Positions 11,380 to 36,471 of a stretch of DNA of 64,000 nucleotides are shown here, piece after piece. Below the pieces are notes generated by a model, which saw only the letters and a program-made list of their open reading frames with translations, was not told where the DNA came from and searched no databases. Location of the stretch: assembly GCA_914767715.1 (NCBI GenBank), contig OU612066.1, positions 6,825,001 to 6,889,000 on the forward strand. Reading direction: 5' to 3'. Position numbers and translations under genes: made by a program. Position 1 is the stretch's first letter; each line of letters opens with the position of its first letter. The DNA is from Membranipora membranacea. Taxonomy: Eukaryota; Bryozoa; Gymnolaemata; Cheilostomatida; Membraniporidae.

Positions 11380-14300
11380 ATGGCGGGTCTCAAATCCTTG
11401 CCTACGATTCAACTTATACCCTGTTTTGTGCTGCTGTTTGGGATTGTAAGGTAAGATAATCAATCAACTTTAGCTACGTTTTGATTAAAAAATCAGGATA
11501 TATGATCTTTTTTGCTGTGAGTGAAACCACGGATTTTCGAAGTTGCCATGGTATGATACGAGTTAACTAAGGAATTTTGTGGTGAATGCTGCTCTCGATT
11601 TAATCATAGGCCTATGCGGAGAATGCCATATCTATTTATTAGTTAACAGGTTGTACAAAAAATGAGAAAACTCTTTATCGCCATGTTTTATAGCCAAACA
11701 GTAGATCCTGCTGTCTGTTTCGTTTCACACCATCATTTTTATCGATCCTCTGTTTTTCCAGCTGTGCAAACTATACTCTGATGGTGCCAAGTACAGTAAA
11801 TGCTGGTAGCACTCTGGATTGCTTACTCACTGTTTTATATGACTCTCCGAGCGATGTGACCACCACAGTAAGCAGTAGCAGCACCGGAGAAACAATATCA
11901 TCAGTGCAATCTCCTAACGGTAACGGTAAGTCACACACACACCACATACACACACACTCAATTATTTAATTACTTAGAAACCTCGGCTATCCATTCTGTT
12001 TATTTCAGCGCATAATAAGATAAATGCTTGTTAATCCAGAATTGGCTCCGACTCTTTATTCCACGATACTCTGAATGCTATAAATTTGACGACAAATTTG
12101 TCAGACAAGTCTGCTATATAAGGCTAACAGTAACAACATAGGGATTTTCTCACTGATATATATATTCATACCAACGTTTTTATATCTGCTTAGGAGCTGT
12201 AATTTATCACAATATGGATCTAACTAATTGTCATCGTTTTTATTTTCAAAGACCATTGGTTTTGTCTACGCCTGTCAACATAATCAAGACATACCTGGGT
12301 GGAAAATGTATAATAAAGTCACAAAATCAAACAAGTCATCATATTATGTATAAAGTAGTTTGCTGAGGTTACCAGTAAATTAAAATGTGGATTTGATTGG
12401 ATGTGGCTATGCAGTAATATTTTGCTGTAAATTTATTCAAGCTAGGTCGCTGTATCCCATCTCATTCATATTTCTTTATGCATTTATGTACCACGAGTGT
12501 ACGGTAGAAATAATTTCTTTTTAAATTTTGCATGCATTAATGGCAAAATAGCAGGTTTAATTATTCAAACAACCTCTGCAATATCTTGTTGTTGAGTAAT
12601 CTTTTTTTATGACATTTTGTTTATCTTCAGCTTATTACTACAGCTTGCAATACTTATCTTTTAATTATACTGCTATTTGAGTGTCATTGAATAGCAACAA
12701 TGTGACTAATACTGTTCTTATTGTTTGTAGGTGCAGTTACACCTATTAACATTCAGGTATGTTGTTGCCTTTTAGTAATTTGATACCTTCTTACGCGTCA
12801 ACTTTTAGTATTTAGTATGTTTGAGAGCAAAGTTGGCAAAGATCATCTTTACATGTCATTCAGGATTGAAATTGTTTATTAATGTTTATTACTAATCAGG
12901 GGACGTGCATTTTACATTCAGAAGAATTTATGATATTCTGATGTCATCTTGTCATACATGATTTATCGATGTCAGACAGGAGAGGCTTAATTTTATTTTT
13001 ATTTCTGGCTAGCAAATGTGTCATCCATCGATAAGCACTGCCATGTCTTTGCTGTTTTGAGTCTTCGGACTGAGACAGTAGCTTGTGACTTTGACAAACC
13101 TTTTTTAAACCAACCACATTTTGTGTGCTTACCTGAATGTTCCCCTACCCTAAAGGAGAAAAGTATTTGCAGGAGGAAAATTTCGTATTTTCACCCGTGC
13201 GAGAAATAGCTACTTTTTAGGCTAGTTAACATTAACTCATCTCTTTAATTTTAAAAGACTACCACCTCATCTAGCCAAATGAAGTGCTAGCTAACATTGA
13301 GTGACCCCCAAACTGTGCAATGCCTTTACTGGTCAGGCTCAGCGCCTTTGGGTCTATGCTCGACAGCGGGCACTGTGCTGACTCGTGCATCGACTGATCT
13401 TCTTGTGCGGATACTTTCCATATGTGTCCATCGGGACAGCCATCAGTTGTTGCTTTAAAATATAGATTGTATATTTGTGGCCATTTGTATTGTATAGTTG
13501 TTTTCTTCTTTACTACAGATTCCTGATGGTTATAGTGGTCAGTATGATCTTGAGATATCCAATGATGTTTTTACTGCGGAGGTGGAGTTCAAAGTAGTCT
13601 CAGTGCCATATGCGATACTTATCCAGACGGATAAACCAATCTACAAACCCTCTCAAACAGGTGAGGCCTATTTATCAATCCAATACACATGTGAATATGA
13701 CAGGGTCAGCTCCTAGGACCTGTCCCGCCTCGCAAAATATAAATAAGTTAATAATTATGGTCCATATTTAACGTGGAAACAGCCACTTGTGTGATTTTCG
13801 ATCTTTCTTGCACCATCTAAAGTGCATGATGCTGGTAATTGTGTAAAAAAGTACACATAATAATGTTATTTCAGCTTTCCAGGGTATAATTGTTATCACC
13901 CTGTTTGTTTAGCTGTAGTAGCACTGGAATAACTTCACTATAATCAATATCACTGTGAGATAATGATGAAAACTTGGGATTGTTGTTAGAATAGCAAAGT
14001 TTCTCGTTTTTCAACTTGATCATGAGTTCCTTGTTCAACGTAATAACTAAATATGTGATTTAATGTATTGACCTGCATTGTTATACAAGTCAAAATGGGT
14101 GGAGTTGCATTTTTGTAATAGGATAGAATCACTCACAAGGTATAAAATATAAATGTATAGGTCTCAAATCAATATGTCATCTCATATTTTTATCATGATG
14201 GAGGCCTTTTCTCATGAGTTTGTTGTCTCATATTTCAGTTAATATCAGAGTGGCTGTCATCGATCACAACCTGCTGCCAAGAAATGAGACAATAGATGTT

Positions 14301-17300
14301 ATCATCGAGGTTTGTAATCATCGCAATTGCAATTTATTCTTCTCATCCTGTTATACGAAGGTTATAGGCATTGGCTATAAATTAAAAAATATGAAATTAT
14401 GAAAAGTTAAAAATATATTATTAAATATTTTCATTACGGCTTAAAGATCAAGTTAAGATATCATGGGAGCCTCAACCCTATCATGTTCTAGCCTATGGTG
14501 TCAAATAATGGGGAGTAAGGCGATAATATACATCTAGTAATTATATTCTAATAAGGGTAAGGCTAAATTAACTGGATCTATTTAGAATGATATAGGTTTT
14601 ATGTGTGTAAAAATATGGTCAATTTGTGAAATAGTACATTACACCATTCAGTTGTCAAAATTGCAGGTGATGTGGAGAGGTGTTTTTGGTTTAAATTGAT
14701 GCTTAAAAGAGTTACTAGGTGAGGGATTCTATTTCACTGCCTCAAAAAACCAAACAATGAACTGGAACAGATCTAAAGAAAAAGGAATTGCTGCCTTGCC
14801 TGTATCGTGTGTCAAGACTTTTCTGTAAATATACATCGCTACTCTTCGGTGTTTCACTCAGTGACATGACATTGATTATTATCTGTATTGTCAGTATTTT
14901 CTGCATGTTGACAGGATGCTGAGGGGAATAAAATAAGACAGTGGAGAACAGAGAAACTAGAGATGGGATTAGCTCAATTCTCACTTCCTCTGTCCGATAG
15001 ACCTCCTCTCGGAGAATGGACTATTACTGTCTCCACTGATGTGAGTGGTCTTATAATATTGTTGCAATTTTATCTGTCTAGTGTTGTTGTTGATGCCTTG
15101 TGCATTCAAGGAACTCGAGTTTTAGGAGTGCAGTGATGCAGTTCAATATAACAGAAGCTAAACACTAAAATTTAGTGTCCTTCATGTTCTCATAGAGATT
15201 TGAATTCCGGCAACAAATTTATCGCATGAAGACCAACGATAGTGAGATACTGAGACACTGCGAGCCTTCCTATCATACCCAATGAACTTACTACTGTTTG
15301 TCACCCATACAATATCAGATAACTTAAAACTGCTCGCAAAGTCACACCTGGGCTTGAGTGAACAACGTACCAAGTGACTGACCTAAAATATTCCACTGTT
15401 CGGTGTCCTGGTACATGCTTAAATTGCTGCTTGTTTCCACAATAAAAAGCTACAATGGTTCCTGCCAGTACCTGATACGTACTGCCGCAACACTTCTAGG
15501 CCGAGGGCTTCATTTGGGATAGAGATCATTGATAAATATCACAGATCTATTTATGATTAAATAGCGCCTTAAAGGTTGTAATTATGTACACCAGTCCCAA
15601 TGTAGGCCTAGGCTGTACCATGCCGTTCCAGCGACTGAACCCCTTTCATAGCCTTAGGTCTGCACACATCATGATGGGTGCCTTTTGTAAACCCTTAGCT
15701 TTATGATATGCCACGAAGCCTATTGTATTTGTTCGATGCTCAATGTATTGTATTGAAGTAAGCCTGAGTCTATTGATAGAGCCGTGGCATGGTACACACT
15801 GATACACGGTCGTACAGTCATGTGTAAAGGCCTATAGAAGAGAATTGCTGCTCTGCACTAGTTTGTACTCAATAGCTAGTCAATACGCTGGGTAAACAAT
15901 GTCGTGTTTGCTTGTTTTTTCATTCAGTAGGTAGTTCAAAACCTTGAAAGTAGAACTAGAGCGCTTCATGAGGGATTCCTGATATGATAAGAAAATATAC
16001 ACAATGACACAAAGGACGCTCATTCAAGGATGCCATAATTGACTCATCGATAGATTACTACATAACATACATAACATGACACTTCCCTGTTTCTACAGAA
16101 TGACTGATTTTAGAGCCACCTCTCAAAATTTGCTCCAAAAGATGAACACTTATTGCTCTCATATATCGGCTAACATTGATGAAGAATGGTTTGGTGTCAC
16201 ACGTCACATTTTTATTGGTTTAATGCCTAAGGCAAACCATACACATAGTGGAAAATGGGAAATATACTCTTAGTTTGCAACCTTTATTGCTGGCGGCCCC
16301 ATATCTCCCAGGTTTCTGACACAAGCCACCCTATTTTAAGGTCTGGCGGTGTCAGTGTGTCGTGCACTTTTAAAGTTTGGCAAGACGTGCTACAGTCACA
16401 GACTGTACTGTTATATAGATCACCACTAGTTCACATTGCTTTGTAATATCAGACTGATGTGTAAAACAGATTCTCTCTTATTGTATGTTTATTTAGCACA
16501 TCGTTATAGGGAGCAAACTCAAAAAGCATTACTCAATGAGAGGGAGCATGTCAGTTTACTTGTCTAAGTATTTACAGCAGGTGCAGCCCACTGACATTAG
16601 CCTTAAATATAAGCATTTCATAGTAATGACGCAAATGTTTCCATTACATTTTTCAGACTGCACAACAAGAGAAGACAATCAAGATTGATGAATATGGTGA
16701 GATATTTCTTTTATTTTTTTCTTGTAAACTCTTTGGAGTGCTCATCAAGAACCAGACAACAATCTTTGTTTATAACCATCTTCAAGTCCACTCCTTCGCA
16801 AGAAAATTTAAGGTGGGCAGAATAAATTAAATAGATTTCCCATCTACCTCCTTAGCCTATCTTGACAAACGAAGTTGTCAAGACAGGACATTATATTTTC
16901 CACATTGGACTATTATTTTACCACTTACGGTCACAACACAGGGTCAACCAGGTCAACATTTCATTATATTCCTTTTCTACAGTTCTACCTAGGTTTGAGG
17001 TGACAGTAAACCTTCCATCTTACATTCTAAAGAGCTACCAAGAGGTCGATCTGGAGGTGTCTGCACAGTAAGTACCAGTGCCTTTCTCTTGAACAATGGA
17101 TGGAATATCCTTGTCCACAACTTTTTCATAATTAACTAGTACATGGTATCAACAGATAATGTAACTGCACTAAAATCGGTATTTTCGAGACTACCCAAAG
17201 ACCAATGTATGTTTAGTCAGGCAGTTACTTATGATTAAGAATTATCTTCCTGACTATAACATGCATCGGGGTTTGAGATGTCTTTAAATTGACAGATGTA

Positions 17301-20300
17301 GCATAAACAATAACCATAGCAGAGCTACTGAAAATGAAAATTTACTGCCAATAATGTAAGGAATTATTACCAAAAATACGATCATTTTTTGTCAAGAATG
17401 ACTTTCATCACTTTTACTAATTCCTTAGGTACACATACGGAGAGGATGTTATTGGAGATCTGTCTTTGGTCATCACGACCACAACTGGAACCATCACTAA
17501 AGATGGATACCAGGTAAACTATCCACCTGCTTCTCTGCTGTGAGAATAAAGTGTTACCAGTTTGAGGCTCGAATAGCTTGTATTGGCTTTCATAATGACA
17601 TTTTGATGTTGTAGTGTCAAAATGTCATGAAACTGAAGAAATTAAGAACTCGAGTGATATAACTTCATACATATCCGCTGCTTTATTTGAAATGTTGGTG
17701 TACTGTAAATTCTGTTTTCTTGCCAGAATTTGAATTAACATCTTCATATTGAAAAAAGTACTGCTGTTTTATTTTACTAACATACATGAAGCATCTGATA
17801 AGCATCTGTTAAATCTCCAACGCTGTAATATTACAGATTTCTGGCACCAAGTCCCTAACCTTAGCCTTGTCAGACCTACAGGAGCTTGGTTTGACTGACG
17901 GTACCTCTATGACAGTGCAGGCCTCAGTGTACGAGCCCTTATCTGGTAAAACTCTCTCAGGATCCTCTCAGACTCCTATAGAGAGCTCTCACTACCAGAT
18001 ATCCTTCATGGAGATAAACAGTAAATCCTACAGAGCCGGTCAGACCTACACATGCTATGTGAGTGTTTGAATTATATTATGTAATCATGTGCAATCAATA
18101 CCATTTGCAAGTGAAACGGAAATGGAACCTTGAATTATTCCGTTTGGTTTCATGTACTGTTTGTTGTATTTTGCTATTAGGTTGAGTCTCTATAGCTATA
18201 CTTTGTGAGAAGTGTAAGTGTTTGACAATTTTGTGCCAAAGTATACAGAATTCTAAGCTCTGTTACATTAACAAAAAATCATTAGTACTCGTAAAATACT
18301 TGGACAATGATAACATAACAATTAAGAGTTTTGCTGCTCAAATACAGATTGGCTCTGTTGGCTCATGCATTCTGTTTGACGACACTGATTCTTTAGACAA
18401 GTGCTTTTAATTCTTGATTTAGAATTTTTCACAAGTACCCATGTACCGTAGAAAATAGTAAGTGTTAATGAGATATATGCGTATGTGTGGGATGAGGTCA
18501 GTGTGGCTAAATGGGACTGGCTGATGACATCAATCGGTGCCTAGGCTCGATTCACTCACGAAAATAAACATCCGCTGTCAGAATTCATACACCACCTCCA
18601 CACATTTCTCCGTCGATACCATTTATCACCTTGGTTTATGCATGTTTCTCTTATGGTTTCTGCGAGAGTTTCATTAAGTTCTTGTCTTCTCTTATTCAGT
18701 ATGAGATAGCCAAGCCTGACGGATCTCGTGTTGATGATCAGGGTATGATTCTCACTGCTACTCTGAAGGGAGAATCCTACTCAGGTGGTTCTACAACATT
18801 AGAGACTGTCGATGTGCCTGTACCTACCGATGGTACAGTGTCCGTCTCAGTACAGGTCCCTGCAGAAATCGCCGACTACTACATGCTCTCACTGGATTCA
18901 ATGGTGAGGCCAAATGGAAATTTTTGGTTTGATGTATGGTATACTTTTACTCATGCCGGACTAGTGTCTTTTCATGACGTCACTTGGCAAAACACATTCC
19001 AAACCACTTGCTAATTGACTGAAAATTTCTATGCAGAAGGGACCTGCAACGATTATTGGCGCCAGTATTTCCTTTATATGTTTACTTCTCTCTATTCCCA
19101 AAATATAACGATTGCGTTAGTTTTAGGTTATTTTGATACAATTCCATAATGACAAAAAAAATTGTTTTCTGTAATTGATCTGTTCCTTTCTTCTTTAGCT
19201 GACTCTTAGTGATCAGACAACGAGAAAAGGCACTACAGAAGATCTGTCCAAGTTTGATTCTGTAAATGATGATGTATCTCTACAGATAAGCTCTGATGTG
19301 ACCGGAGTACCAAACGTGAATATAATATTATATAATGTTATCTATATTATACATAAATATTATAACTCTATATGTCATAACACAATGTTAACTCAGTTTG
19401 GATATTCTCTACTCATAGAGAAAATAGAATGCTGCTCTAATCGTAATTAATTTCTTATAAGCCAATATTTAATTAAGTCTAGGTATAATAATATTGTTGG
19501 ATAAAAGTACGAAGATCCATGATATAAGGCAATCACGAGGAGCCAAGACCTTACCGCTATTCATTTTTTCACTTCGCTCACCAATAGTGATTTTTTCACA
19601 TCCAGGTGGGAGATTCCGTAGCAGTCACAGTGTCATCCTCCAGCAGAACCGGAACATTTGTATACTTAGCCTCGTCTCGTGCTAGAATCATAGCATACGG
19701 CAGCGGTACGCTAGACTCGCCCACCTTCAATCTGCCAATAACACAGGAGTTTACACCACAGGCTACACTGCTGGTCTATGCTGTAGTAGGTGGTGAACTG
19801 CTGGCTGACTCCATTCAGTTTAATGTCGAGGGTACATTCCTAAATGAGGTAAGATTATTTATTGGCTTATTGCCAAGTAATGCCATCAATCATTATAGAC
19901 ATGGTTCGTTTAGAATTCAGATGCTTGGCTATGATCTGTCCCAGTATTTTACTTTCTAAAGCACTTATTCGAATTGTTTAAATTTATACACCAGAATCAT
20001 ATTCGTCACTGCTCTCTCTGTATGGCTCATTGCATGTTCTGTACTGACACATCTCTCATTGCTGATATTATAGGTTAGCCTGGAGTTCAGATCGAGCGCG
20101 GACTCCGTAATCACTGAGGCTAAGCCTGGTGACGATGTCAAGGTCAGGGTTGAGACCGAGGCTGGCTCCACTGTCGGCCTGCTGTCTGTAGATAAAAGTG
20201 TACTGCTTCTGGGCAGCGGTAACGACATCACCCAGTCGCAGGTAAATTAACTGCTGCTAATTTATTGCATGTATACTTGTCCAGTAGCTAGATTGTCTTC

Positions 20301-23300
20301 AATGATAAATATTGATCAGTTTCTCAATCTGGCACTTCACGACCTTGACTGGGACATGATTTTGACCTTGTGGATATGGATTTTCATTGCTGAGCATGTT
20401 CGAATGATTTCAATGCCAACAATTATAGCATTAAATTTTAGTCTATGTTCCCCACGGTCAGGCAATGTTTTACTGTTTTGATGATGATTTAATGAAATCA
20501 TGCGCACCAGGTTGTGCTACAATAAAGATGACAAAACATAATAGAATCAGTAGATAGACGATGATGGTGATGTTAAATGTTAAAATTACTTCAAATTTTA
20601 CATAACAGTGATCGCCTTTCTCAGCCAGTGTTATGGAGGAAAGAGTAAAAGAGTAATGTCAGTTTTGCTTGACGTATATGTGTGCATATCTTTATTATCT
20701 CACCTGGTATAAATTCTACACATGACTGTCCTCAGCTTGATATTGTTCCCTTTACAGATACTGACAGAGCTGATGGCCCTTGTACAGACTGAGTCCGAGT
20801 GTGGAGATAACGATGACAGCGAGCCGTTCCGATTCTTCTGGTTCCCTCGATTCGGAGGCTCATCTTCTGAGGATGTCGTCTCTGTAGGTCTTGATCCATC
20901 TCTCTCTTTTATGAGTTTTTTTGTAAATCTCGCTTTTCATATGCACATGTAATTGATATTCTAAGGTTTTGTTTTTACATTTATTAAAGGGCAACCAAGG
21001 TTTCGCAGCAATGCATTAATGGGTAGCAAATAATGTGCTGGGCAGCATCAGCTTTGTGCATTACGCGATGCAAAACTCAAAGTAGTTGCTGACTCTAAGC
21101 AGGGTAACACTTCAGTTTAGGGGAGGTTCCAAGACATTGCTGTAATGATGATAGAGCACAGGCTAAATAATAACAGGAACAGGAAACTGCTCTGTGGTTT
21201 TCTATTTTAGCTGAGTTTGAGTGCCTGATGGAAGAAATGTTTCACAAGAATTCTGGCTGAATAATCATCCGAATTATATTTTGTCTTTTTCCCCATGCAG
21301 AAGGTGCAATCTGCTATTAATCAATGGCCATCGATGAGAAGTTGTTTGAAACCTTGGTTGCACTTTAATATTGCAAGTTCATAATAATGCATTTCAGTTA
21401 TCGTAATTTTGCCGACCACTGCAGCTCTGGCCTTGTTGCAGAATATTTCACTCTTGATTACGCCTGACAGTGGTCAGTGAGATGATAATGATTTGGAAAC
21501 CCATTTCCGTTGAAACTCTTCCTTTAGAATAACTGTACTTGGAAACCAAGTTCCACTAAAAATATCTACCTTTACCGCTAATCGGTGCAAATACAGTCAT
21601 CGTCAGCAATGACGACAGCAATATTATAATATAACATCCCTCTGGTGCACAGCTGAACTTAATAGGCAGCATGATAAACTGTTACGGTGCAGGTGCACTA
21701 AATGCTGATTAGGTAAACATGATTGGTGAGAAAATGTCTTCAGTCAGATGTGGCACGGTCAGTTGTTACTAAATGTATGTTTGTGATGCACATTCCTAGC
21801 TTGAGTCGCAGTACCATGATAAGTCCAAATCATTTGAATTGCAGTACCATATCCAATTTTATTTAAAATAATATGTGCCTTGCAGGGTGCAGGATTGAAA
21901 GTCGTGACAGATGCTGATCTTAAAGAATGCAGACCTGGTAAGTTTTGGTGTGACAACAGTTTGTGGACACAAGCTTCTCTTGATGATTGTTTTGCAAGGA
22001 CTGCTATGATGCTATGACTTATCTTTAACATTTTGTAGCCTTGGACAAAAATAAGAACTGGCTTTGCAATATTTGAATTTCGAAAGAAAGATTCTGATCC
22101 AACAATATCAGTTTTCATAATATGAACATTGTGTAATATACTTTCAATGCTCCTGGCAATTCACTTTGCTCTTCCACTTACTACGCATTGTAACCTTATG
22201 ATTTGCATGTATGATTGTGATGTAATAATATGCCATGCTGTGAGATTGAGGATAGACTTGTACGCTTTATTTGATGGGAGGGATGTTTTCAGGTTTTTGC
22301 ACTCTTAACTGTATCTAGCAACCCTTCCGCAGAAAGGACTCGCAGATCAACTAAGGTTACCATCTGAGGCTCTCATATTCAGCCAAGAATAGCCATAATT
22401 TGTCAGACGGGCAGCAAGATAAATTTCTATTCATCTCGCAGCTAAATGCAGTTAAAATCTTGCAGTTTCAGCTCATAAAATGCAGCAGCTGCTAACAGTC
22501 AGGGAGTTATTTCCTCTTTCAAAAGAGTAGACGACTCAAATCTTGTTAACCGGCATTCATCTGTAGTTATCAACCTTAGCCTTGTTTCTCTTTTTCTACA
22601 CTGATATTCATGCATTTCAGAGCAGCCACCCTTTTATGTGGATTTTGTAATGAGAGATAGTATTGCGAAACCGCCTCGACCAGCTCAACTCTCTGTATCC
22701 CAATCTGAAGAAGCACCTACTGTAAAACAGAGACGACTTTTCCCAGACACCTTGCTTTGGCTTATTAATCACAGGTCTAATGGCTTCCAATTCATCTGTT
22801 CCGATGACTTTGACCTTGAAAATTTCCTTGTTTACATCTCCTCTCTTTCTCCTTGCTGTTTAATTTGTTCACTCATTTTCTATCATCCCAACGTCAGCGT
22901 CAGCGTCGTGGATCCTTTGATGTGAGAGTTGGAGGTTTGCAATGATGATCCCTCGTCTATCATCCTGCTATCAAACATGTGCTTGGCGTACTGTCAGATT
23001 ATCTAGCAGTCTGTCTTTGGTGATTTAAAGATTCATTCTGAGTGCTCATCGTAGCTATTCATATTACTTATTTTCACCCTCCCTAAGATCTTAATACTTA
23101 AGTCCACCTCTACTATAAATAACCCGATGCTGAATGATAGCTCTCATTAGGAGTCTAAAAGTAATGCTCTCCACGCACAGATTACGGATATAATATCTAT
23201 TATGATGGCTTTGTGCCTGCGATGTACTATGAAATGGAATACGCTATGGCCGGGGCTGCGCCTGAAGATGATGAAGACATGAAAGCCACTGAAAAGGATA

Positions 23301-26300
23301 ACTCAGGTTCTGTGAAAAAGCGACAACTGTTCCCTGAGACATGGCTATGGGACATATCGGCAAGGTATGAATAAACGCGTGGTGCTCCCTGCAAACAGAG
23401 CCCTTCTCTAGCTGCTCTTCTCTACCCAACCCTTTACTCATATATGTTGCCTGATCCTCTCCTTTAGAATGGACTTACTGACAAAATATGAAAGCTGTTT
23501 TACTCAAACCTTCTATTTTTTCTCCTGCCTCTAACATCCTCTCCGTGATGCATAATCCATTCTGAATCTGTCTCTAGGAATCAACCGATATTGTAACTGT
23601 TTTCAGTTAGTATAGCAAAGTTGGTTCTGTATGCATTGCTTTGCGCTTCGGCTGTAACCATGAAATCTCTGAATGGGTTTATCAGCTTTTCTTCTTCACC
23701 GCTATTCCACACAAATCTAACATAACATCTACCAGATTTTCACAAAAGATATTTTATCAACCATTGTGGTTATCTGCACTACAGTTAGTGGGAAAGGTAT
23801 GTTTTATCGATCATTGCCAGTCAGGAATTCAGAGGATCATAAGCTTTCCATGATTTGAATGTGCTGCTTCGACTGTGGATGGCTTCTTTTTTCTTCATAT
23901 AATAGTTGCCTACTAGTCATGCTTGGAATGTATAACCCCATGTCATGTTATCTCTAGATAATCTTATTTCTTATCACAATCTTTGCTTTGCAGTCTTCTA
24001 TCGTAATATGAGATTGCCAGGGGGTGTCAGCGAGGTGGCCAGTCATCGACCTCCTGGTGTTGGCTCAGATGATATAAGCGCACCAGTGGTGAGCAAGAGA
24101 CAGTACTTCCCTGAGACATGGCTGTGGGATTTCACCCTCAGGTACATGACAATCTCTATTTCCATATGTCTCCATCTATTTCACTTGATCATTTTTTCTT
24201 TCTATTGCTGTTGTTCAGATCACTTCTCATCAGTCAAATATCATCATCAAATTTTCTGCCGCATTTACTCATTCTCAAATTGAACTGATTGTTGGTTGGT
24301 TTGGTGATGAGTAGAGACTTCTATCTTAGTCTTTGGGAGATGGTTTGCATTTTTTGCTGTCAATGGATGGTGATATGATGTTTCCACTGAACAGGAGGAT
24401 ATGAATGCCTCCAAAATGAATTTACATTCATATCCATAAGTCTGTAATTAATGATTCGTGTCTACTACTCATCCCTCGGACGTATAAATTCTGTATTTTT
24501 TAATATCGCTACACCTTTGTTGAGATGGCGGAAAGAGAGACAGGTGGGGCCATCAGGTCATCTGAACTTGTGGGTGGTTATCAGACACCTTCATATGCTG
24601 GCTGAGGTACATGAGGACTCTTTATTTTCATGGAAAGCAGTATCACATTCTGCAGTATCAAAATTCACGCTTCTAAAGGAGTTTGGTGTTTATGCCTAGG
24701 TCAGTGATTACCCAGTATGTAGAAGTTTTTGTGGTGGTTTTCTACTTCCTTGATCCTTGTGAGAGGATCTGCAATCTAAACTATTCGCAGAACATGTACA
24801 TGTGTCTGTGAGGCTTCCAAAGTAAGTCTGCTTCTAACATAGGTTGCTGCCAATGTTGTACTACCTCCTTGCACTTGGTGTTATTTCAGATTTTACAGAC
24901 TACAACATTTTTGCGGAGATGGCAGATGTCCGCTTTAACAGAGAAGGTGCGGCAGTCATGCCAGATGAAGACTTCGGTAGTACTTATTCACCTTCAGTCG
25001 CTAAACGACAGTTTTTCCCTGAAACCTGGCTTTGGGACTTGATGCCCAGGTAGTATAGTAATAACAAACAATATGATCTTCTTCTTTATCACGATCATGT
25101 TTACCGGAAGTCATCTCAGTATCACCTCCCACATCTCAGTATCTCCTTCCACATCTCAGTATCTCCTCCCACATCTCAGTATCTCCTCCCACATCTCAGT
25201 ATCTCCTCCCACATCTCAGTATCACCTCCTACATTATCACTCTACTCCCTCACAATTTGCTCTCCTGCCATACTATATTTGAGTATTATAGCCCGTCATA
25301 TATCACTGTATCACAGTTGTTGCTGTTGGAAAGAGTTTTCATCGGTGATTCCCTGTGGTTGTCTAGCTCAGAGGTCTCTTTACTTTCATGGGAAGTAGTA
25401 TCACAATCTGCTTATTGCAATCCAAGTTTGGTGTTTATGTCTGGGTCAGTGATTACCCAATATGCAGAGGTTCCTTCTCGTGGTGGTACTGTCCTGTTTT
25501 GACCCTTGTGAGAGGATTTGCTCGCTAAACTGCCTCCAGAAGATGATTAGTTATCTGCATATGATGTGAGGTTTTGTGAGCCCATGCAGATAAGTAAATC
25601 TGCTTCAAATGATGGTTGCTGCCATTGTTGTACATACCTCCTTGTACTTGATGTTATTTCAATTTTTTACAGACTACGGCATCTTTTTTCCTGAGATGGC
25701 AGATATTGCTAATGTACGCTTTAAAGGAGAGGGAGCAGCAGTCATGCCAGATGAAGACTCTGGTAGTACTAATTCACCTTCAGTCACCAAACGACAGTTT
25801 TTCCCTGAAACCTGGCTTTGGGACTTGATGCCAAGGTAGTATAGTAATAGCAAGCAATATGATCTTTATCATGATCATGCTTATCGGAAGTAATCTCAGT
25901 ATCACCTCCTACATTATCACTCTACTCCCTCACAATTTGCTCTCCTGCCACACTATTCGAGTATCATAGCCTGACATATCACTGTATCACAGTCTATGTG
26001 ATTGGAAGAAGTTTTCATCGATGATTCTCTGTGGTTGTCCGGTTCAGGGTTTCTCCAGTGTCTGAAAGGTTGTAGTTAATTCCCTAATTAGTTAGCAGCT
26101 TTATTTATTACACAGTCAGGTATTATCATGCGTGGTGGTAGTTATTTTTGCGTCTGAGGTAAGTCCTGAACTTACCCATTTTTTGTTTTAGATCTGTTCC
26201 CTGTATTCGTTCCTGGTGTTGCTTTGCCAATGCCTATGCCTGAAGCCGAAAGAATTGAGATATCAGCGATTGCTGCTCCTGACTCAGGCTATACTAAAAT

Positions 26301-29300
26301 GAGCACAGCAATCCAGCAGCGGATGTTTTTTCCAGAGACCTGGCTATGGGACCTTTCTGCTAGGTATCCCTCCTTCCCTCATTGATGTTTTCCCAACCAA
26401 AGTCGGAATCCGCATGTAATCGTTCTCACTTCACAATTCCTTGTTTCTCACATTTCATTTCGGGGATGGTTTCCTTCTATATTTGTATATGTGGTGATTG
26501 TGTTGTTTTCAGTAAAATGTCTGTTTCAGCAAAACACTGGAGAAAAAATGTCAAATTTAATCAAAAGTAGATGTGTTACAAGTTTTGGTAGTCAAGATCT
26601 CAGCCCCCAGAAAGGCACTTTGAAGGGGTGTTAGATTTGGCTCAAGCTCCTATAAAATGCTTGCAATCATTATGCAAGTAAAAGTTGTAGGTCAGGAAAG
26701 CTAACTAGTACTTTGATATTTGATATGTTTTTGAAAGGTGTTCATCAACAAGAAAGCTAGAAGGGTTCTGAGTTGTTGAAAGTCTGCAGCACCCGAATAT
26801 GTACGATGTCTGCGCTTTTATGGCGTTTATTGTCCCTTTTTGTGTGTTAGTAGTTTTGGGGTTCAGAACTCTTATTCAGGATGATGCAGTGTGTAATATA
26901 CTCACAGCAATGCTTGTGGTATAAAGATAATGTGTCTAAAGTTTAATGGAGTCTGTCCAATACGAGAACTCAGCTACCAATTTTCTTTGTTCACACATCT
27001 CATCCGGAACACTCAGGCTGCATGGTCGCTGAATCAGACTGCATGGTTGCTGGTCTGTACTAGGAAATGGCTGATTCAAACTTAAGGAAAGAATTTGATA
27101 TCATCATTACAGATATGGTGATGTTTGATGGCCCTGTTATGATGATGGCGGCCGTCCCTCGATTTAGATCAAAAGCCGCATTACCACAACCTCCACCGCC
27201 CAGTGTTGAGGAGCCTGTAGTACAGAAGAAAAGGCTGTATTTCCCTGAGACATGGCTGTGGGATTTAGAGTACAGGTATTGCTTCAGCACGTGCTTGGAC
27301 TAGTTGCTCTACCCAGTTCTCAATCTATAGTTGAAATGCTCTGCTTGGGCTTTAGATTTGCATGATAGCTATGTAACATCATCATTGCCATAATACTACA
27401 GCATGTTTCAACAGAGCAACAGAACTTTTTGCAGGTGATATTTCATGAAAAAGAATTCTTTGGGAAAAAGAAATATTTTACTAGGCCCTGCTTCTGTTGC
27501 TGATATAGATTAAGCTAGTTGAGGTGTTGGGTTACTTTGGTCGATTACGTTCTCCTTCCATGGCTGATATTTGTGTGCTATCAATGAAATATTTACATTT
27601 TTAATTTATGAAATCAGTATGAGAGTAAGGCTGTGGTGGTAGCAACAACATATTGTCACCAACACTGTCTCATCTTTATTTAAAAAAAAACAGATAAACT
27701 TCTACACTCTAATTTCCATCACTACATGGCTGTTTTAAACCGTTTCTCTTCTCATTTCTTTTTTCCCGACTCCGTTCACACACTCTACCTATTCCTATAC
27801 CTACCTCATGTCTTTGTCTGCATGATTTGATACTAGCTGTATTTATGTCTGTTTTTTAATTAATTTAACAAAAGCATGTTTTTTTGACAAACCAAATTTT
27901 TTGTGGAAATTTTTGTTGCAAAAGTCTCTGTTTATGGTAATTGAATGCCAATGTCAAGTTCAAGCTCAATATTTGTCTTTTCAAAATTACAATCACTATG
28001 GTTCCATGGGTCGATTTTGTGGTTCACTCCAATTTCGAATGGTTAGAATCCAGTGGATTCTAACCGTTCCCATGATGGGAAAAACATTAAAAGAATCTGC
28101 CGCGGCCGAGATTTGAACCCCGGCCTCCCGCGTTAAATCCCTTTGAAGGCATTGTGTGCAACGCCGCTAACCATTCAGCCACTACCATTCAGCCACTACA
28201 CCAATTAGGAAATGCGTCGAATAAACACAGTTTGGATATTCGCGTCCAAAAAGTCATTCGTCACAATCGGAATTTGACTTTAATGCCATTTCCATGGGGC
28301 GATTACTACCGAAATCCTTACATAATCGATCCATGGAACCATAGTGATTGTCCTCCCCTCTCTACCAAAGAGAACACCACTACATCACGTGACGTACCAC
28401 TACATCACGTGACGTCATGTGACGTAGGCCTAAAAATGTGCAAATGGAATATATCATGATATGACTCTTACAAATTTGTCCTCATATAAGACCATTGTTT
28501 TTGACGCAGTGAGAGCGGTGTGTTATCACTCGATAAGACCGTACCTGATACCATCACATCATGGGTAGCTACAGCGATAAGCATGCATCCTACATCTGGT
28601 ATATCTGTAACACCACGCTCCACTGAGGTATGTATTACTAACATTGTATAAGATACACAAGAAAGTACTAACACGATAGAAATATGTAAAAGAAATTGTT
28701 CATCGATTTCTGGTGAAATTTTGAAACTGATTAACAAAAAAGACTATTTATTCCGTCAGACCCTAAACAACCCTCTAAATGAAAAGCTGAGATCAAAATT
28801 TAAAAACTTTAGGAATCTTGTGACTAAAGAGGCTCGAAGAGCAAAAGCCAATTATTATGAAAATCATTCAGGTCAACTACAGATATTAAAGTATTTTGGA
28901 AAATTTTAAATGCTGAAAGGGGAAAAAAGCCAAAGGGCTTCTCAAATCCAAAAGAAATTTCAGATGAGACTGATGGCGTAGTTCACACAGACAGTTTAAA
29001 AATAGCAAATAGCTTTAATCGCTATTTTACAGAAATTGGTCAGACTCTTGCCAGCGCTTTTAATGATTCACCTTTGATACCGGAAGCCCCATTGTCAAAA
29101 TCTACCCACGTCAATTTCATTTTTGAACCAGTTGATATAAGTATAACCATGTCAAACTTGATGGCAGTAAACCAACAAAAAGCTATTGAATGAATTGAAT
29201 TTTATTTTGGTAATTGTGTTAGAAACACATTTACAATTTTACTATTGGACTTGATCTCATCCCAGCTAAACTAATTAAATTAGCAGCCCCATTGATAGCT

Positions 29301-32300
29301 GAACCCTTGACCCAAATTATTTATAGGACACTCCAGTCTAGTGTGTTCCCTGATGCTCTCAAAACAGCAAAAGCTCTCCCTCTATTTAAAAAAGGTTGCA
29401 CTAAATCTCTTAAAAATTACCGCCCAATATCAATTTTATCTACTTTCAGCAAGATTTTTTGGCGTGTAGTTAATTCACAAATTACGGCCTTTTTAGAAAA
29501 CAATGATATTTTAAAAGCACCACAATATGGCTTTAGGAAACATGAAAATACTAATCAGGCAATTACATTGCTCACAGACAAAGCGTTAACAGCCATGAGC
29601 AATGGAACATCTGTGCTAGGTGTTTTTCTTGATTTTAGCAAAGCTTTCGATACCATTGACCATCATGTCCTACTTTCAAAATTAACCCATTTAAATTTTA
29701 ATCAAAGTGCAACTGAGCTAATCAGATCATACCTTGCTAATCGCCAACACATTACTGTGATAAATAATAACATATTTTCTGAGCCACGTTTTATAAACAC
29801 TGGAGTTCCACAAGGATCTATTCTAGGTCCAACATTGTTTTTAATTTATATTAATGATCTAGCCAATGCAACTAAAACTCTTGACCCAATTCTCTATGCT
29901 GATGACACAAATTTGTTTTTTGAAGCTTAAGATTCAAATCAGCACCAAATTGAAATTAACGCAGCTCTTATATCAGTTGCAGAATGGTGCAATAAAAATA
30001 AACTAACTTTGAATTTAGAGAAAGCCAACTACATAGTTTTTAAAAATCACCAAAACAAACGAACCTTGATGGCAAACTCAATCAAAATTTTTAACAAGCC
30101 CATGGAACAAGTTAAAAGCGTGAGGTTCCCTGGGGTCTATTTCGATGAGCATTTAACTTGGAAAACTCATATAGAACATCAGATGAAATCTCTTAGACCT
30201 GCGGCCTCTCTGATGTACGAAATTTCCCAATATCTGCCAAAATACGTTTTATTAATATTCTATAATTCCTTTATACTGTCCAAATTGAGCTATTGTATTG
30301 AGATATGGGGCGATGCAGCAGCGACCCATACCAATATAATATTGTTATTTCAACAACAAAATTGTTAGAATCATTTATAAGTCAGAAAGATTTGCTCCAT
30401 CCACTCCACTTTTTAATAAATCAAATATTTTCAGTATAAATGAACTTTATGAATTTAAAACATCAATCTGTGCCCATAAAACTTTTCACTTCTCTAATTT
30501 ACACCATCATTCCAATCATGTCTACAACACACGCTCATCCAACATAAAACTTCACCTCCCCAACTCCACAACCAGTTCTGGGCAACGAAGGGTCTCATAT
30601 CAAATGACAGCACTGTGGAACATGCTGTGTGACAACCTGAAAACAATGAAGAGTCAGGCCGCCTTTAAAACAGCTCTCAAGTGCCACCTCTTGGCTTTAA
30701 GGTTTGAACTTTCTTCATCGTAATTTAATTGATTTCCATTGCCGCGTCTCCTATGGCAATTTGGCATTACACCTCGACTAGCTGCGACATTGTCAAAGCT
30801 ATTGCGCATGTAGGCCTCATCACCGCTTAATATTTTTAGTTTACTATATCTTAACTTGTTTGATGAAAAAGAAACCAAACCATAAATTATTGAACCATGA
30901 TCATAATAATTTTTTCGTTTTTGAGTAGTCTTAGTGTGAAATATTAAAAGCATGTCTGGCATGGATTGATGATATTGGGCGGGTGGTCTACCAATTGGTT
31001 CTCTTTCACTAACTCCAATCTTCTTTTCAATTCAATCATTCATCTGATGCAGTTCCTTTACTATAACTGCTTATAAAAACGATGTTGAGACATACAACCA
31101 CTGATATTTATGTTACAATTATATTTATTATTAATTCATAATATATCTCAGAACATTCAACATGATATTAGCATTAGCATTAGATAACAGAAGACTTTAT
31201 TTTTGACTCCCCATAATCTAAAAAGTAAACTAATCCTTTTTTAAATGCATTTTCATAATGATTCATCATCCATACTGTAGTTGACTGTGAAGTTGGATTT
31301 CTTCATCACTCCTATCCTGCCATACTCAGCTGTGAAGGGAGAAGAACTGTACGTTAAAATCATCGCTAATAACTACGGAGATCTCGCCTCCGAGTCCTGC
31401 ACAGTCACTGTACAAGGGTATGTGTATACTTGTATAAACAGTTTTTTCAAAATGTTGGTTATCGGCTTTGAACTGTTATAAGCTGGCTTAGTATGTGGAG
31501 GGATGTTTCGTCATAAACTGAGACAGTTGATATTGAGCTATATGAATCTAGTTCTATGGATGAGGAATAGGTGGAATGTGTGTTTGGATGTTTGCGGAAA
31601 CTGAAAAATTGACCAGTAAAACTGTTGTAATTTTTTAAGATATGTTCTGCATAGTGCTTCCCATTGATATCGGTAAGAGAGTTCAAGCTTGGAGTTTTTG
31701 TTTTTACTGCAGGGCCAGCTCTGTATATATTTAGATCATAAAATCTGGTGGATAATTTTCCAAACATACTTTTTATGTGTTTGCTTCATTGCAACAAGAG
31801 GAAGTCCCTTCTCTCCTATATCATTCCTGTATAAACTACAACCGTAAAATTTCTTATTTTTAGCTCTGATGATTATGAGGTTAAGCTAAGCGAGAATGAT
31901 CTGTATATGCCCGGAGAGGATATATCTAGCAGAGTAGCAGTAGATAAAAGTGTGGGTACCACAGTGGGGGTGTGGTTACGCCCCTCAGTGATAGACACAA
32001 TCAAACTGTCAGCCTCCGCTAGCTGTGAGTCTGGGGCCGCTGACGCGTTTGAGAGAGAACTTCTTGTCAAGGTTAGTCGACTGTGGGGAATTTGTATACA
32101 AGTATTAAATTGCCTTCCTTTGAACCTCTGTAAGAAGGCTGTCAAGTATTATCACAAAACACATACTGAATCAAAATTCATTATAATTTTATTTTAAATT
32201 AAAAATATTTTATCTAAATTCTAAATCTTTGTCCATTAATTTGAATCAAACCTTCTCCACATATAAATTCATACAAATTTTAAGATTTAACTAGGATTAT

Positions 32301-35300
32301 GTTTGATATTTCTATCATGTTTACACAAATTGAAGTATTGATTTATTTTGTTACAGCCTGCTGGAATCCCTGTAGAAGTTTGTTCCAGTGAGTTCATACA
32401 GATAGAACAAGGAGGAGAAGATGTCACTCACACATTCAGCACTGCCATCAACACTGAATATGTCGCTGACTCGAAACGTGTACAAGTTATCGTAACTGGT
32501 AGGTAGTTCATTTTCTGCATATTAATATTAATTTGCTCGATGTCTACAATTTGTTCATGACAAAGTTTTTAATATCCTGTGCCATGATTTAGCTTATGTT
32601 ACATGAAAATGAGGTCTATAAAGCATGGTGTATATTAGAGAGATTGGAAAACAGCTATTCCATGGCATGTGTATCAACTAATGGGAAAACAGACTTATAA
32701 AACAATTGCATCATTTTATTTCCAGGTGATGTGATGGGACCATCCATTGAGGGTCTAGAGAGACTCATCCAAATGCCATTTGGCTGCGGAGAGCAAAACA
32801 TGATCACTTTCACACCTAACATTTTCGTTCGACGTTACCTCGCCAGCCTCGGAGATGCTGACGCTGACATCATCAAGAAGACAAATAACTTTATGGAGAC
32901 TGGATACCAGAAAGAGCTTACATACAAACACCCAGACGGGTCGTACAGTGCGTTTGGTACCAGCGATCCATCTGGCAGTACCTGGCTCACGGCGTTTGTG
33001 ATGAAGTGTTTCAGACAGGCCAAGGACTTTATAGATATAGATCAGGGTGTGCTCGATGCAGCTGTCAATTGGTTAAATAATCAGAAGAACCGTGAGGGAA
33101 TGTTTAACGAGCCTGGACGAGTCATTCACTCTGAAATGCAGGTGAGTAACATGTTTTTTCTGCTCCTGATATTCATTATAGTATTCGGGGCTTCCTGGAA
33201 CATTTGAAGAAAATAAGCTTTATTTCAACGCTCTGCTGACAATACATGAAAATAAAAAATAAAAAACCTCTTTCCACATCGAACCTATTAGAACCTTAAT
33301 CATATGAGCAAACCATGTGCTGCACATTATCATATGGTGATAAAATAAGTCTGTATGTTTTCTTATTTAATAGGGTGGTACATCTAGTGGTGTAACACTG
33401 ACAGCCTTTGTGGTGATCGCCATGTTAGAGGATGTCACTGGCTCAGACCTATTTACACGTATCAGTGCATTATCTGATACCGTCGCATATTTGGAAGGCA
33501 AATTCTCAGAGATGGAGAGTAAACCATATCCACTCTCAGTATTAACCTACGCACTAACACTGGCTCAGAGCAGCGAGGCTGGTAAATTCCTGGCAGCAAT
33601 GGAAGCTCTCCAACGAACCGATGGTAAATAAATCAAAATCAAATTCAGATATTGATAACATGACAACATCTGAATGCAGCAATGAAATATGTCACTCCTA
33701 CAATTACCTAGGAAACTAAACAATGTTATTGTTCCGCTTGGCTCTCATCCAACAGCCAAAACGAGCCAAAACGAGCCAAAACTAAAACCAAAACGTTGTG
33801 CAGTGATACAACAGCAGCTAACCATGTCGAAGCATGTTTATAATAGATTTGTATTAATTTGCATTATTTTTCAGGAGGACAGACCTGGTGGACTACTAGT
33901 GATAATACCGATACCGACACCAACGCAAAAGTAGCATTGGACATCATGATACCTGAACCAACAAGCTCTCCCAGCTCAGTGGAGATGAGCTCTTACGCTC
34001 TGTTGACTTATGTACATTCAAGTGATGTCAGTAAAGCCAAACCCATCGCCATGTGGCTCACTAAACAAAGAGGAGCCTCTGGTGGATTCCATGGAACACA
34101 GGTGTGTGATTAGTCTGAACCCCCCCCCAGACTCTTGAACCCCCCCCCCCCCTTGGCCGGATGTGTGATAGGGCCTGATCTCAGCTTCTGCAGTTGGCTC
34201 TAGATTGAGAATATTCTCTACGCAGAACAGAATTTACTGTCGCCTATATTTAAATATAATACTATTTACCTATGCTGTTGCTTGTCTTGTAAGAATTTAG
34301 CATTATTTTTTCAAAATTTTATTTCCAAAAAAAGGATGGTTATTTGCTGTTAAAGAACACTACTATTAAAAATGACTATTTTATATTGTTGTACAGGATA
34401 CTGTATTGGGACTGCAAGCCCTGGCAGCTTATGCTGAGACGGTGGTATCTGACAATACTAATCTGGATGTTGAGTTTAGTACTAATTCTAGTGATACCTT
34501 CAGTCATACAATCACCGCAGACAATGCCATAATCACCAAGAAAAACAGTGTAAGTTGCTCTCATCTCGACAAACACAGTCTGAAATACACCAAATAATAT
34601 GGGCGTCAACGTTCTTCCTAACAATGATCATATAGCTATAAACAACAGCTCACATTTCCCTTGCGCAACTCAACTATGTTATCCACCTTCCCCTTCCATT
34701 ATAAAGTCTATTTTTATCTCCTGCAATTTTTGTCCTTTCAGTTCAAACCAGCAGAGGGAATCAATGAAGTGACAGTCACATTATCTGGACTTGGGTCTGC
34801 TATCGTCAGTGTAAGTATTTTGGTTCATTTAAAGCTCATCGCAACCTTCTTGCTTGTTTTAGTAGTTGCCTTTCCAACAGAACTGTGAAGACAACTCCTT
34901 TATTGATAATGCTTATTACCAGAGAGGAGTACACCTCATACTTGATACATCATACCTCATACTCATTACTTTATATAGGATCTTCTAATTTAGCGAGTTA
35001 AAATTGGTGCTAGCTATCATAACATCGACCCCAAACTAGCTAAAGTCTAGCTAATATTTACGCCTCTAGGGCAGACATATGGTACTTCTATTATTTTGTT
35101 CAGGAAGAATGATATTCAGATATGCTAATGAGAATATTTCTTTGTATTATAGACATGTACTGGTTACAATGTGAAATCTTCAGCCTCACCGAAGCCAACT
35201 ACCAGAGTGACAACAGATGTAACGAAGCCATCTAGCGACTCGTCCACCTCCAAACTCTCAGCCTGTGTTGTGTTTATGGGAGAGGAAGGTACGTAAGCTA

Positions 35301-36471
35301 ATGAATTAATTGGTGTGCTTGTCAACGAAAATGAAAATTGTTACTTTTGATTCACAATATGATTCACTAGCTTCATTCAGTATCAAGAATATTGAATTTG
35401 TTACCATTTGACTTGTTGACTTCCTTATAGTGTACTCAGCTCAATAAGTCTGAATAAAGTGAAATGAGAATATAATTAAAAACTGGCCAAAGTAACCTAC
35501 ATACATTGTCTGAATTAACAAGATTTCTGATTTATAGACTCTGAGTCAAATGGAGTAAACTGTACATTTGATTTGATATAATTATTTTGATACATTTTGA
35601 TACATTTTGATTCATTTTGATTCATTTTCAGACTCTGGTATGGGTTTATTGGAGGTGAATATGGCCACCGGGTTCTCTGCCTCTGTTGATGATGTGACGA
35701 GAGTATCAGGAGATTTGGCTCTTATAGAGCAGACATCTGATGGACTAGCTGTGTACTGGAACGAGGTTAGTGATAGCGAAACTAATAAATAACATGCTTA
35801 ATTAGTAGTAAAAGGTACCTGGCAATGTTTGTTTATCTTTCACTGATGTGAACATACAAAATTGCCAACTACGATTTATAACACCTTATTTCAGCAATCC
35901 TATTGTCGTGAAATGAGTTAAATTTCTGTCAATCATTTGGTGATTGCTTGCTTACATACTGGTCAATTGGTTTATTTTAATATTTTTTATATAGTTATAT
36001 TATGTAGTTATAAACTGTTAACTAACAGTAATTTTGTTTTGTAGATCACAAGCAGCGATTCTTGTGTTGAGATTTACCTAACTCAGGAGAATGAAGTGAA
36101 AGAGGTTCAAGATACTTACGTTGTCGGTTCTCAATATTATAGCTCGGGTCAGTAAAATCTCTGTCACAAAGTTAATATAACTATGAAAGCTCATGACCTT
36201 CAATTCGATGTTAGAATGATTGAGTGTCGAATGGCGAGTTCCATGAAATGAGTCTGATATTGGAATTTTAACTTGACGATGTATCCAGGGCTTCATTTTC
36301 AGTTCAAAATCAACTTCTTCTATATTTTCAGAGTCAGCAAGCAGATCCTTCTATAACCCCTCAGTCGCTCGTCTTGTGTCTGATTGTACAGCTGATTGTG
36401 GAGGTGCAGCTCATGTGCAGCTTGCGTCTCTAAGTGTACTTTTGTCGTCAATGCTCTATCATTTCATGTGA
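11380..36471 (+). CDS. Thioester-containing alpha-2-macroglobulin/CD109-like protein
   Basis: This is a secreted or GPI-anchored thioester protein that traps proteases or tags surfaces. Constant exons: 11380-11450, 11762-11925, 12731-12756, 13519-13660, 14239-14309, 14915-15040, 16657-16696, 16983-17067, 17429-17513, 17837-18058, 18700-18903, 19199-19315, 19606-19848, 20074-20241, 20758-20883, 21886-21937, then one cassette (A-G), then 28510-28627, 31281-31417, 31864-32071, 32357-32498, 32726-33141, 33374-33623, 33875-34101, 34397-34549, 34742-34810, 35153-35288, 35632-35765, 36045-36147, 36332-36471. With cassette B the frame is intact for 1452 aa, the usual family length. Landmarks: signal peptide (residues 1-24), TDKPIYKPSQT in the MG domains, GLLSVDKSVLLL (MG6), a bait cassette at about 648-708, PDTITSWVA, thioester GCGEQN (930-935), catalytic His (VIHSEM, His1045), receptor-binding domain and a hydrophobic C-terminus. 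CD109 or an arthropod-type TEP are the nearest relatives; I infer CD109-like from the tail. Confidence 0.95.
20988..21364 (+). mobile_element. piggyBac-like MITE, copy 1 (377 bp), in a thioester gene intron
   Basis: The terminal inverted repeats are AGGGCAACCAAGGTTTC at the left and its near reverse complement (GAAACCTTGGTTGCACT) at the right. TTAA lies directly outside both ends (20984-20987 and 21365-21368), the piggyBac target signature. No transposase is encoded. It lies in the intron between the exons at 20758 and 21886. Confidence 0.9.
22621..22774 (+). CDS. Alternative bait exon A of the thioester protein (divergent)
   Basis: This 154-nt exon lies behind tgcatttcag. It enters in phase 1 and leaves in phase 2, like the other six cassettes. 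It encodes a variable part starting EQPPFYVDFVMRDSIAKP and ending with VKQRRLFPDTLLWLINH. The post-bait motif is degraded relative to the others (PDTLLW instead of PETWLW), and the donor GTCTAA is poor. It could be a divergent functional version or one that is decaying. Confidence 0.8.
23181..23364 (+). CDS. Alternative bait exon B of the thioester protein
   Basis: This is the longest cassette (184 nt; acceptor ccacgcacag, donor GTATGA). The variable part is rich in Tyr, Met and acidic residues (DYGYNIYYDGFVP, then EDDEDM), followed by VKKRQLFPETWLWDISA. It is the only cassette whose donor has G at +5. Using it gives the 1452-aa protein. Confidence 0.9.
23994..24141 (+). CDS. Alternative bait exon C of the thioester protein
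   Basis: This 148-nt exon (acceptor ctttgcag, donor GTACAT) begins VFYRNMRLPGGVSEVASH, is rich in Gly, Pro and Val, and ends SKRQYFPETWLWDFTL. Entry phase 1 and exit phase 2 match the other cassettes. Confidence 0.9.
24899..25049 (+). CDS. Alternative bait exon D of the thioester protein
   Basis: This 151-nt exon (acceptor attttacag, donor GTAGTA) begins DYNIFAEMADVRFN, continues GAAVMPDEDFGSTYSP and ends AKRQFFPETWLWDLMP. It is a recent duplicate of exon E. An alternative acceptor ten bases upstream (ttatttcag) would put the exon out of phase. Confidence 0.9.
25112..25231 (+). repeat. Six-copy 20-bp tandem repeat after bait exon D
   Basis: The unit CATCTCAGTATCTCCTCCCA repeats six times with one or two changes per copy, starting 63 bp downstream of the exon D donor. 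The matching place after exon E has only a single copy (CTCAGTATCACCTCCTACAT). The array therefore expanded after the D/E duplication, or shrank in E. Confidence 0.9.
25673..25835 (+). CDS. Alternative bait exon E of the thioester protein
   Basis: This 163-nt exon (acceptor ttttttacag, donor GTAGTA) begins DYGIFFPEMADIANVRFK and ends TKRQFFPETWLWDLMP. It is nearly the same as exon D but 12 nt longer, with a few substitutions in the variable part (GSTNSP against GSTYSP). The flanking introns are also duplicated. Confidence 0.9.
26192..26363 (+). CDS. Alternative bait exon F of the thioester protein
   Basis: This 172-nt exon (acceptor ttttgttttag, donor GTATCC) begins DLFPVFVPGVALPMPMP, continues with Ala/Ile/Ser-rich sequence and ends IQQRMFFPETWLWDLSA. 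The dibasic pair seen before FPETW in most cassettes is replaced by QQR. Confidence 0.9.
27113..27275 (+). CDS. Alternative bait exon G of the thioester protein
   Basis: This 163-nt exon uses the acceptor catcattacag at 27112, the only nearby AG that gives entry phase 1, and the donor GTATTG. The frame is also open further upstream, from 27064 after an in-frame TAG. It begins DMVMFDGPVMMMAAVP, runs into a proline block (PQPPPPSVEEP) and ends QKKRLYFPETWLWDLEY. Confidence 0.88.
27989..28351. mobile_element. TIR element carrying a tRNA-like sequence
   Basis: The ends are inverted repeats of about 32 bp with two mismatches (ACAATCACTATGGTTCCATG at the left). An internal palindrome lies at 28039-28064 (TGGTTAGAATCC and its complement). 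On the minus strand, about 28190-28095 looks like a tRNA: D-arm-like TGGCTGAATGGTTAGCGG, then a complete T arm (CCGGG-TTCAAAT-CTCGG). The acceptor stem does not pair, so it is a tRNA relic captured or amplified inside the element. It sits in the intron between cassette G and the next constant exon. Confidence 0.7.
28700..30723 (+). mobile_element. Decayed LINE (non-LTR retrotransposon), reverse transcriptase part
   Basis: The sequence lies in the thioester gene intron between the exons at 28510 and 31281. The reading frame shows reverse transcriptase blocks in order: a KAIGLDLIPAK-like block, LKNYRPISILSTFSKI, VLGVFLDFSKAFDTIDH, GVPQGSILGPTLFLIYINDL and the catalytic YADDTNLF box, followed by the typical C-terminal region (RRVSYQMTALWNML). 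It is broken by a 59-bp insertion with a stop (29188-29246), a TAA at 29928 and a frameshift near 30366. The endonuclease domain is missing, so it is 5' truncated. It looks like a jockey/CR1/L2-type element; the exact clade is not decided. Confidence 0.9.
32726..33141 (+). CDS. Thioester-domain exon of the thioester protein
   Basis: This is the longest constant exon (416 nt). It encodes MPFGCGEQN, with the thioester Cys-Gln pair at 32782-32799, and ends with EPGRVIHSEMQ, whose His (33127-33129) aligns with the catalytic histidine of C3. The spacing of 114 residues between the thioester Cys and this His is close to that in C3. Having the His predicts fast transfer to hydroxyl groups, as in C3/C4B and CD109, unlike human alpha-2-macroglobulin, which has Asn there. 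Confidence 0.93.
35586..35631 (+). repeat. 10-bp tandem repeat forming a splice acceptor tract
   Basis: About four and a half copies of TTTTGATACA/TTTTGATTCA end directly in the TTTTCAG acceptor of the thioester gene exon at 35632. Confidence 0.75.
36332..36471 (+). CDS. Last exon of the thioester protein, with probable GPI-anchor signal
   Basis: After the receptor-binding domain the protein ends with small residues (DCGGAA), then a hydrophobic run, LASLSVLLSSMLYHFM, and stop TGA at 36469. A small-residue site, a short spacer and a terminal hydrophobic tail without following basic residues form a GPI-attachment signal. This fits CD109 rather than soluble macroglobulins. Confidence 0.7.

Follow-up and report, generated by a model that had tools for sequence, protein, structure and literature searches.

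Results

A seven-exon array within a CD109-type thioester gene

How many of seven tandem exons that encode the same part of a thioester protein can enter one mRNA, and what would such a choice change in the protein? This question is raised by a window of 64,000 nucleotides of the Membranipora membranacea genome (C2:6825001-6889000 of 339,339,785 bases in 18 contigs). A sequence-only reading had proposed that a CD109-type gene in this window selects its protease bait among seven alternative exons. We assembled a splice-aware gene model from hand-picked open frames, using the sequence alone, and compared its product with Pfam and PDB. The modelled gene (coding span 11380..36471, plus strand) has 27 coding exons counting one cassette and is open from ATG to stop; with cassette B the protein has 1389 residues. 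It begins with a hydrophobic start, includes one thioester exon and finishes with a C-terminal hydrophobic tail. Between exons 2 and 3 the model uses a weaker donor and acceptor pair, the strongest pair being out of phase, and because of this difference in phase the model probably lacks at least one small exon of the N-terminal part at this point.

Pfam recognized MG2, MG3, A2M_BRD, A2M, TED_complement (9.2e-91) and A2M_recep in the model protein, which thus has the macroglobulin domains, bait position, TED with GCGEQ and receptor-binding domain of the A2M/TEP/CD109 thioester superfamily. In a phmmer search of PDB, human CD109 was the best match (8.2e-154, among the best 60 of 74 distinct sequences), followed by A2M (2.4e-120), Anopheles TEP1 (3.8e-100) and C3 (2.1e-80). 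The proposed CD109 type was therefore borne out by its best solved relative, and among solved proteins the product would be of the CD109 subtype, with A2M, insect TEP1 and C3 all more distant from it than CD109. The thioester exon (32726..33141, plus strand) carries an intact GCGEQNM and, near its end, VIHSEM (Cys 868 and His 982 of the model). This His lies 114 residues beyond the thioester and aligns with GRVIHS of CD109, a position that we take to be the catalytic place in C3. The last coding exon (36332..36471, plus strand) encodes a Cys pair and then the hydrophobic tail, whose mean hydropathy reaches 1.47 over 15 residues and which is plausible as a GPI signal.

The window has further features outside these coding exons. 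What looks like the remains of a non-LTR retroelement, with frames in pieces, occupies 28652-30720 in the intron after exon 28510-28627, and its frame 29223-29927 matches the reverse transcriptase RVT_1. Two inverted repeat copies (20979-21368 and 63234-63623) are 95% identical over 390 bases. An open frame on the minus strand (38910-39206) resembles TRAP-alpha (SSR1; Pfam PF03896, E 2.6e-9). Two open frames at 46232-47272 and 56962-57219 resemble CPAP/CENPJ (tubulin-binding PF25779 and Tcp10_C PF07202) and would form one CPAP/CENPJ gene. A single open frame of 575 residues (59189-60913), with no Pfam match at E 0.001, could encode a type II membrane sulfotransferase.

Layout and position of the cassettes

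The array is flanked on the plus strand by a constitutive exon at 21886..21937 (GAGLKVVTDADLKECRP), which ends in phase 1, and by another at 28510..28627 (SESGVLSLDKTVPDTITSWVA...), which starts in phase 2. Between them, and on the same strand, lie cassettes A (22621..22774, 154 bases), B (23181..23364, 184 bases; KKRQLFPETWLWDISA), C (23994..24141, 148 bases; SKRQYFPETWLWDFTL), D (24890..25049, 160 bases; AKRQFFPETWLWDLMP), E (25673..25835, 163 bases), F (26192..26363, 172 bases; QQRMFFPETWLWDLSA) and G (27113..27275, 163 bases; KKRLYFPETWLWDLEY). The array introns measure, in order, 683, 406, 629, 748, 623, 356, 749 and 1234 bases; the one after cassette D holds a short tandem repeat of the cacatctcagtatctcctcc type (25112-25234). 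The starts first read for the cassettes (22621, 23181, 23994, 24899, 25673, 26192 and 27113) are all AG acceptors, and the donor at 21937 and acceptor at 28510 agree with the gene model. For cassette D a second in-frame AG lies 9 bases upstream of 24899, at 24890, and the two acceptors give exons of 151 (24899-25049) and 160 bases.

In every cassette a variable stretch is followed by some version of KRQxFPETWLWD. The FPETWLWD motif is retained in six of the seven: in cassette A the sequence is KQRRLFPDTLLWLINH, where the usual W and D are missing, and cassette F reads QQRMFFPETWLWD, without the KR pair. An FPxTxx DNA pattern, made wide enough to take in cassette A, matched seven times on the plus strand of the 64 kb and never on the minus strand. 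A six-frame profile search (open pieces of at least 18 residues), with a profile built partly from the same cassette motifs, recovered all seven (E 1.2e-8 to 3.3e-12) and, at E < 2, one further, chance-level match (22495, E 0.57). Both searches thus uphold the seven tandem exons. The previously given length of about 35-45 residues suits the variable part (33-45 residues, taken as those ahead of the last 17, which contain the motif; E and F counted by hand) but not the whole cassette, which totals 50-62 residues.

In the alignment with CD109, cassette B covers the CD109 stretch that ends in RKHFPETWIW, in agreement with the proposal that the cassettes occupy the bait position in this fold. The variable stretches might instead serve mainly as recognition or adhesion surfaces, exclusive splicing then diversifying binding as in arthropod Dscam. 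Such a role would suit cassettes that differ in length and in net charge (0 to -8), in a protein that has kept its thioester and the His aligned with CD109; moreover, BgTEP2 of Biomphalaria glabrata is said, in excerpts of PMC7016707, to bind the surface of Schistosoma larvae. Nevertheless, the same position is a protease-sensitive bait in relatives, and we consider a mainly recognition-based function unlikely, if worth keeping in mind, next to the bait reading.

Only one cassette at a time keeps the reading frame

All seven cassettes are entered in phase 1 and left in phase 2, have lengths of 1 mod 3 and are bounded by GT-AG sites. Each single-cassette product is open to the stop of the model (7/7), whereas an early stop interrupts the cassette-free product and all those that include two to seven cassettes in order (121/121, namely the empty join and 120 ordered joins of two to seven cassettes, numbering 21, 35, 35, 21, 7 and 1, with D taken from 24890). 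Thus, among ordered choices, a full-length protein would be obtained with one cassette only. The one-of-seven choice that had been proposed is indeed required by the reading frame, and the tandem exons are homologous, share one phase and keep the frame when exactly one is included, as in a mutually exclusive array. We also considered that the cassettes are joined in tandem or are parts of separate neighbouring genes. We found no point in favour of this arrangement; none of the 120 ordered joins with more than one cassette keeps the frame, and the model places a single start exon, a single thioester exon and a single last exon around the array, so that it can hardly be entertained. The array very probably represents, as read from the genomic sequence, mutually exclusive alternative exons that choose the bait of a CD109-like thioester protein.

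The exons, their splice sites and phases, the frame logic, the position in the fold and the purifying selection on cassettes D and E described below can be read from the DNA; from them we infer actual cassette use, bait cleavage, an immune role and regulation of the choice. The exon ending at 21937 would be spliced to one of the seven cassettes, and this in turn to the exon starting at 28510. From the chosen cassette would come the bait loop, which would be exposed and sensitive to proteases, and also the opening strand of the macroglobulin domain that follows. The mRNAs would thus differ in the bait that they encode but not in the rest of the CD109-like thioester protein. Once the bait is cut, the protein would spring, and its thioester could bind to the protease or to a surface nearby. 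The simplest exclusion device, and the minimum one, would be the loss of misspliced mRNA through early stops.

Cassette donors score below constitutive donors (home-made score; 7 vs 25; p 0.014), which speaks for mutually exclusive use; with the same home-made score cassette acceptors are not lower than constitutive ones (p 0.95), which speaks against it. A search for docking and selector pairing, in this one species, set the first and last introns of the array against the six introns between cassettes. In a first pass with 12 shuffles the best median z was -1.50 for the first intron and -1.73 for the last. In a leave-one-out control the best of 114 tiles of the last intron scored -1.92, a value reached by one of 24 shuffled sets, and the best of 59 tiles of the first intron scored -1.33, reached by four of 24. 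A docking pairing in the last intron would therefore be borderline at best, and one in the first intron appears weaker. Neither Rfam, at its gathering scores, nor a tRNA scan gave any match in the window.

Two mechanisms of exclusion were rejected. Incompatibility of U12 and U2 sites does not hold as a general mechanism, as cassette F alone has a donor near the U12 consensus (1 mismatch); the donors of the remaining six have 3-5 mismatches, and acceptor 28510 is without a close U12 branch site (3 mismatches), all sites being scored with words that we assume to be the U12 consensus. Steric exclusion by short introns was also set aside, the shortest intron having 356 bases.

Selection on the cassettes

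Cassettes D and E, together with their intron flanks, are a tandem duplicate whose aligned pieces are 76% and 86% identical. Between the two cassettes we count about 10 nonsynonymous changes over 121 sites as against 11 synonymous ones over 32 (Fisher p 0.0005), which corresponds to a dN of 0.09 and a dS of 0.46; in their intron flanks K is 0.25 and 0.15. The pair is a recent duplication under purifying selection, and both copies seem to have been kept as protein. For cassette pairs other than D and E, dN/dS is largely saturated. Cassette A may be decaying, as its motif has lost the W and D and its donor (gtctaa) has the lowest score of the seven. The earlier count of at least seven variants is accordingly generous: the seven single-cassette frames are indeed open, but A looks degenerate and its donor is the weakest.

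These observations bear on the view that splicing draws on a single cassette or a few, the others being decaying leftovers of exon duplication, a question on which the frame logic cannot establish the use of every cassette. Besides the state of cassette A, two of the 17 motif matches found elsewhere in the genome look like broken cassettes, and in the excerpts of PMC7016707 transcripts are given for four of eight predicted variants of BgCD109. Against this view stand seven open frames out of seven with GT-AG sites in one phase class, purifying selection on D and E, and the FPETWLWD motif in six of seven cassettes. We regard it as improbable.

Cassettes at other TEP places of the genome

A PF00207 search of the genome gave nine matches, which correspond to the gene of the window and six other places. 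Sixteen 10-kb stretches around these six places were read with the motif profile, which was trained partly on the same cassettes; it gave 17 cassette-like matches, including two weak ones kept by eye (E 0.0014 and 1.7), while four others (E 0.47 to 1.7) were discarded as chance. The two that look broken lie at 15076 of the first C4 stretch and at 9352 of the C11 stretch. The remaining 15 are distributed as five plus one in two tandem TEP genes on C4 (C4:20532001-20582000; motif starts 10846, 11348, 12353, 13542, 14442 and 32721 of the joined stretch), two in another C4 gene, one on C9 with the motif FPETMLFD, and five plus one in two tandem TEP genes on C11 (C11:22710001-22760000; motif starts 8542, 9843, 11096, 12059, 12854 and 33085 of the joined stretch), where the motif has a FPESWLWS version. 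At least three other TEP genes thus have several cassettes (5, 5 and 2). Some C4 cassettes encode collagen-like G-x-P-G repeats; such baits might be lures for collagenases.

At all six places the cassettes lie ahead of a matching downstream exon, which opens in phase 2 in every case (6/6, by eye from the DNA). A candidate phase-2 donor is available in 15/15 cassettes, often beside GTs of other phase. A candidate phase-1 acceptor is top-scoring in 13/15 and present without leading in the other two, some of these acceptors being close to the motif and possibly wrong. A pattern search for the pre-array exon at these places gave no convincing match. Two motifs from one gene are more alike (mean identity 0.66, 42 pairs) than two from different genes (0.52, 189 pairs), which fits an expansion within each gene. 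The resulting seven TEP places and 22 cassettes (A counted) are a lower bound and not a census. It is possible, though in our estimation somewhat short of an even chance, that bait swapping is family-wide: across seven TEP places with at least 22 cassettes and four arrays (7, 5, 5 and 2), one shared frame class (entry in phase 1, exit in phase 2) would have persisted from a time before the genes separated, and each of them would have enlarged its own set, including the collagen-like G-x-P-G baits.

Discussion

The gene described here, which lies on a single long contig, is a further clean case of an innate-immune-type gene able to change its protease bait by splicing. Moreover, the recurrence of the phase pattern at other TEP places leads to a testable claim, that the swappable bait exon is old in the family and was expanded gene by gene.

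Among known systems, human CD109 (PDB 8s3o, 9fx2) is the solved relative with the best match, which extends over most of the length, and has the same RxxFPETWxW motif after the bait. The seven-member set had been thought novel, which does not stand: excerpts of PMC7016707 describe in Biomphalaria glabrata a BgTEP2 gene whose 12 tandem bait exons are mutually exclusive, span 30 kb and were recovered as transcripts, the C-terminal part of each being strongly conserved. BgTEP2 and our array thus share tandem, exclusive, bait-like exons with a conserved C-terminal part. They differ in that BgTEP2 is classed as an insect-type TEP and its 12 exons are seen in transcripts, whereas here seven exons over 4.7 kb belong to a CD109-like gene and are known from genomic sequence; the snail transcripts show the same arrangement in use. 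BgCD109 of the same snail, for which a GPI signal is stated, is like the gene described here in its CD109 type and in its alternative exons at the cleavage region, but eight variants were predicted and four found as transcripts, against seven cassettes here, and the authors doubt some of the predicted variants (excerpts of PMC7016707). The same text reports three variants of BgA2M and cites six variants of shrimp A2M-2. In the scallop Chlamys farreri, CfTEP (as cited there) has six mutually exclusive exons at the same site, compared with seven here, and seven isoforms are reported, several of them induced by immune challenge. In Drosophila Tep2, an insect TEP with five isoforms, the alternative exon 5 encodes a hypervariable bait-like region (parts of PMC5489563 and PMC7016707), so that it resembles our array in having alternative bait-like exons and differs in type and number. 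The array is therefore a clean new example of an arrangement described in snails, scallops and flies, and what appears to be new relative to these systems is the presence of several cassettes in at least three other TEP genes of one genome, their candidate splice sites being for the most part of the same phases.
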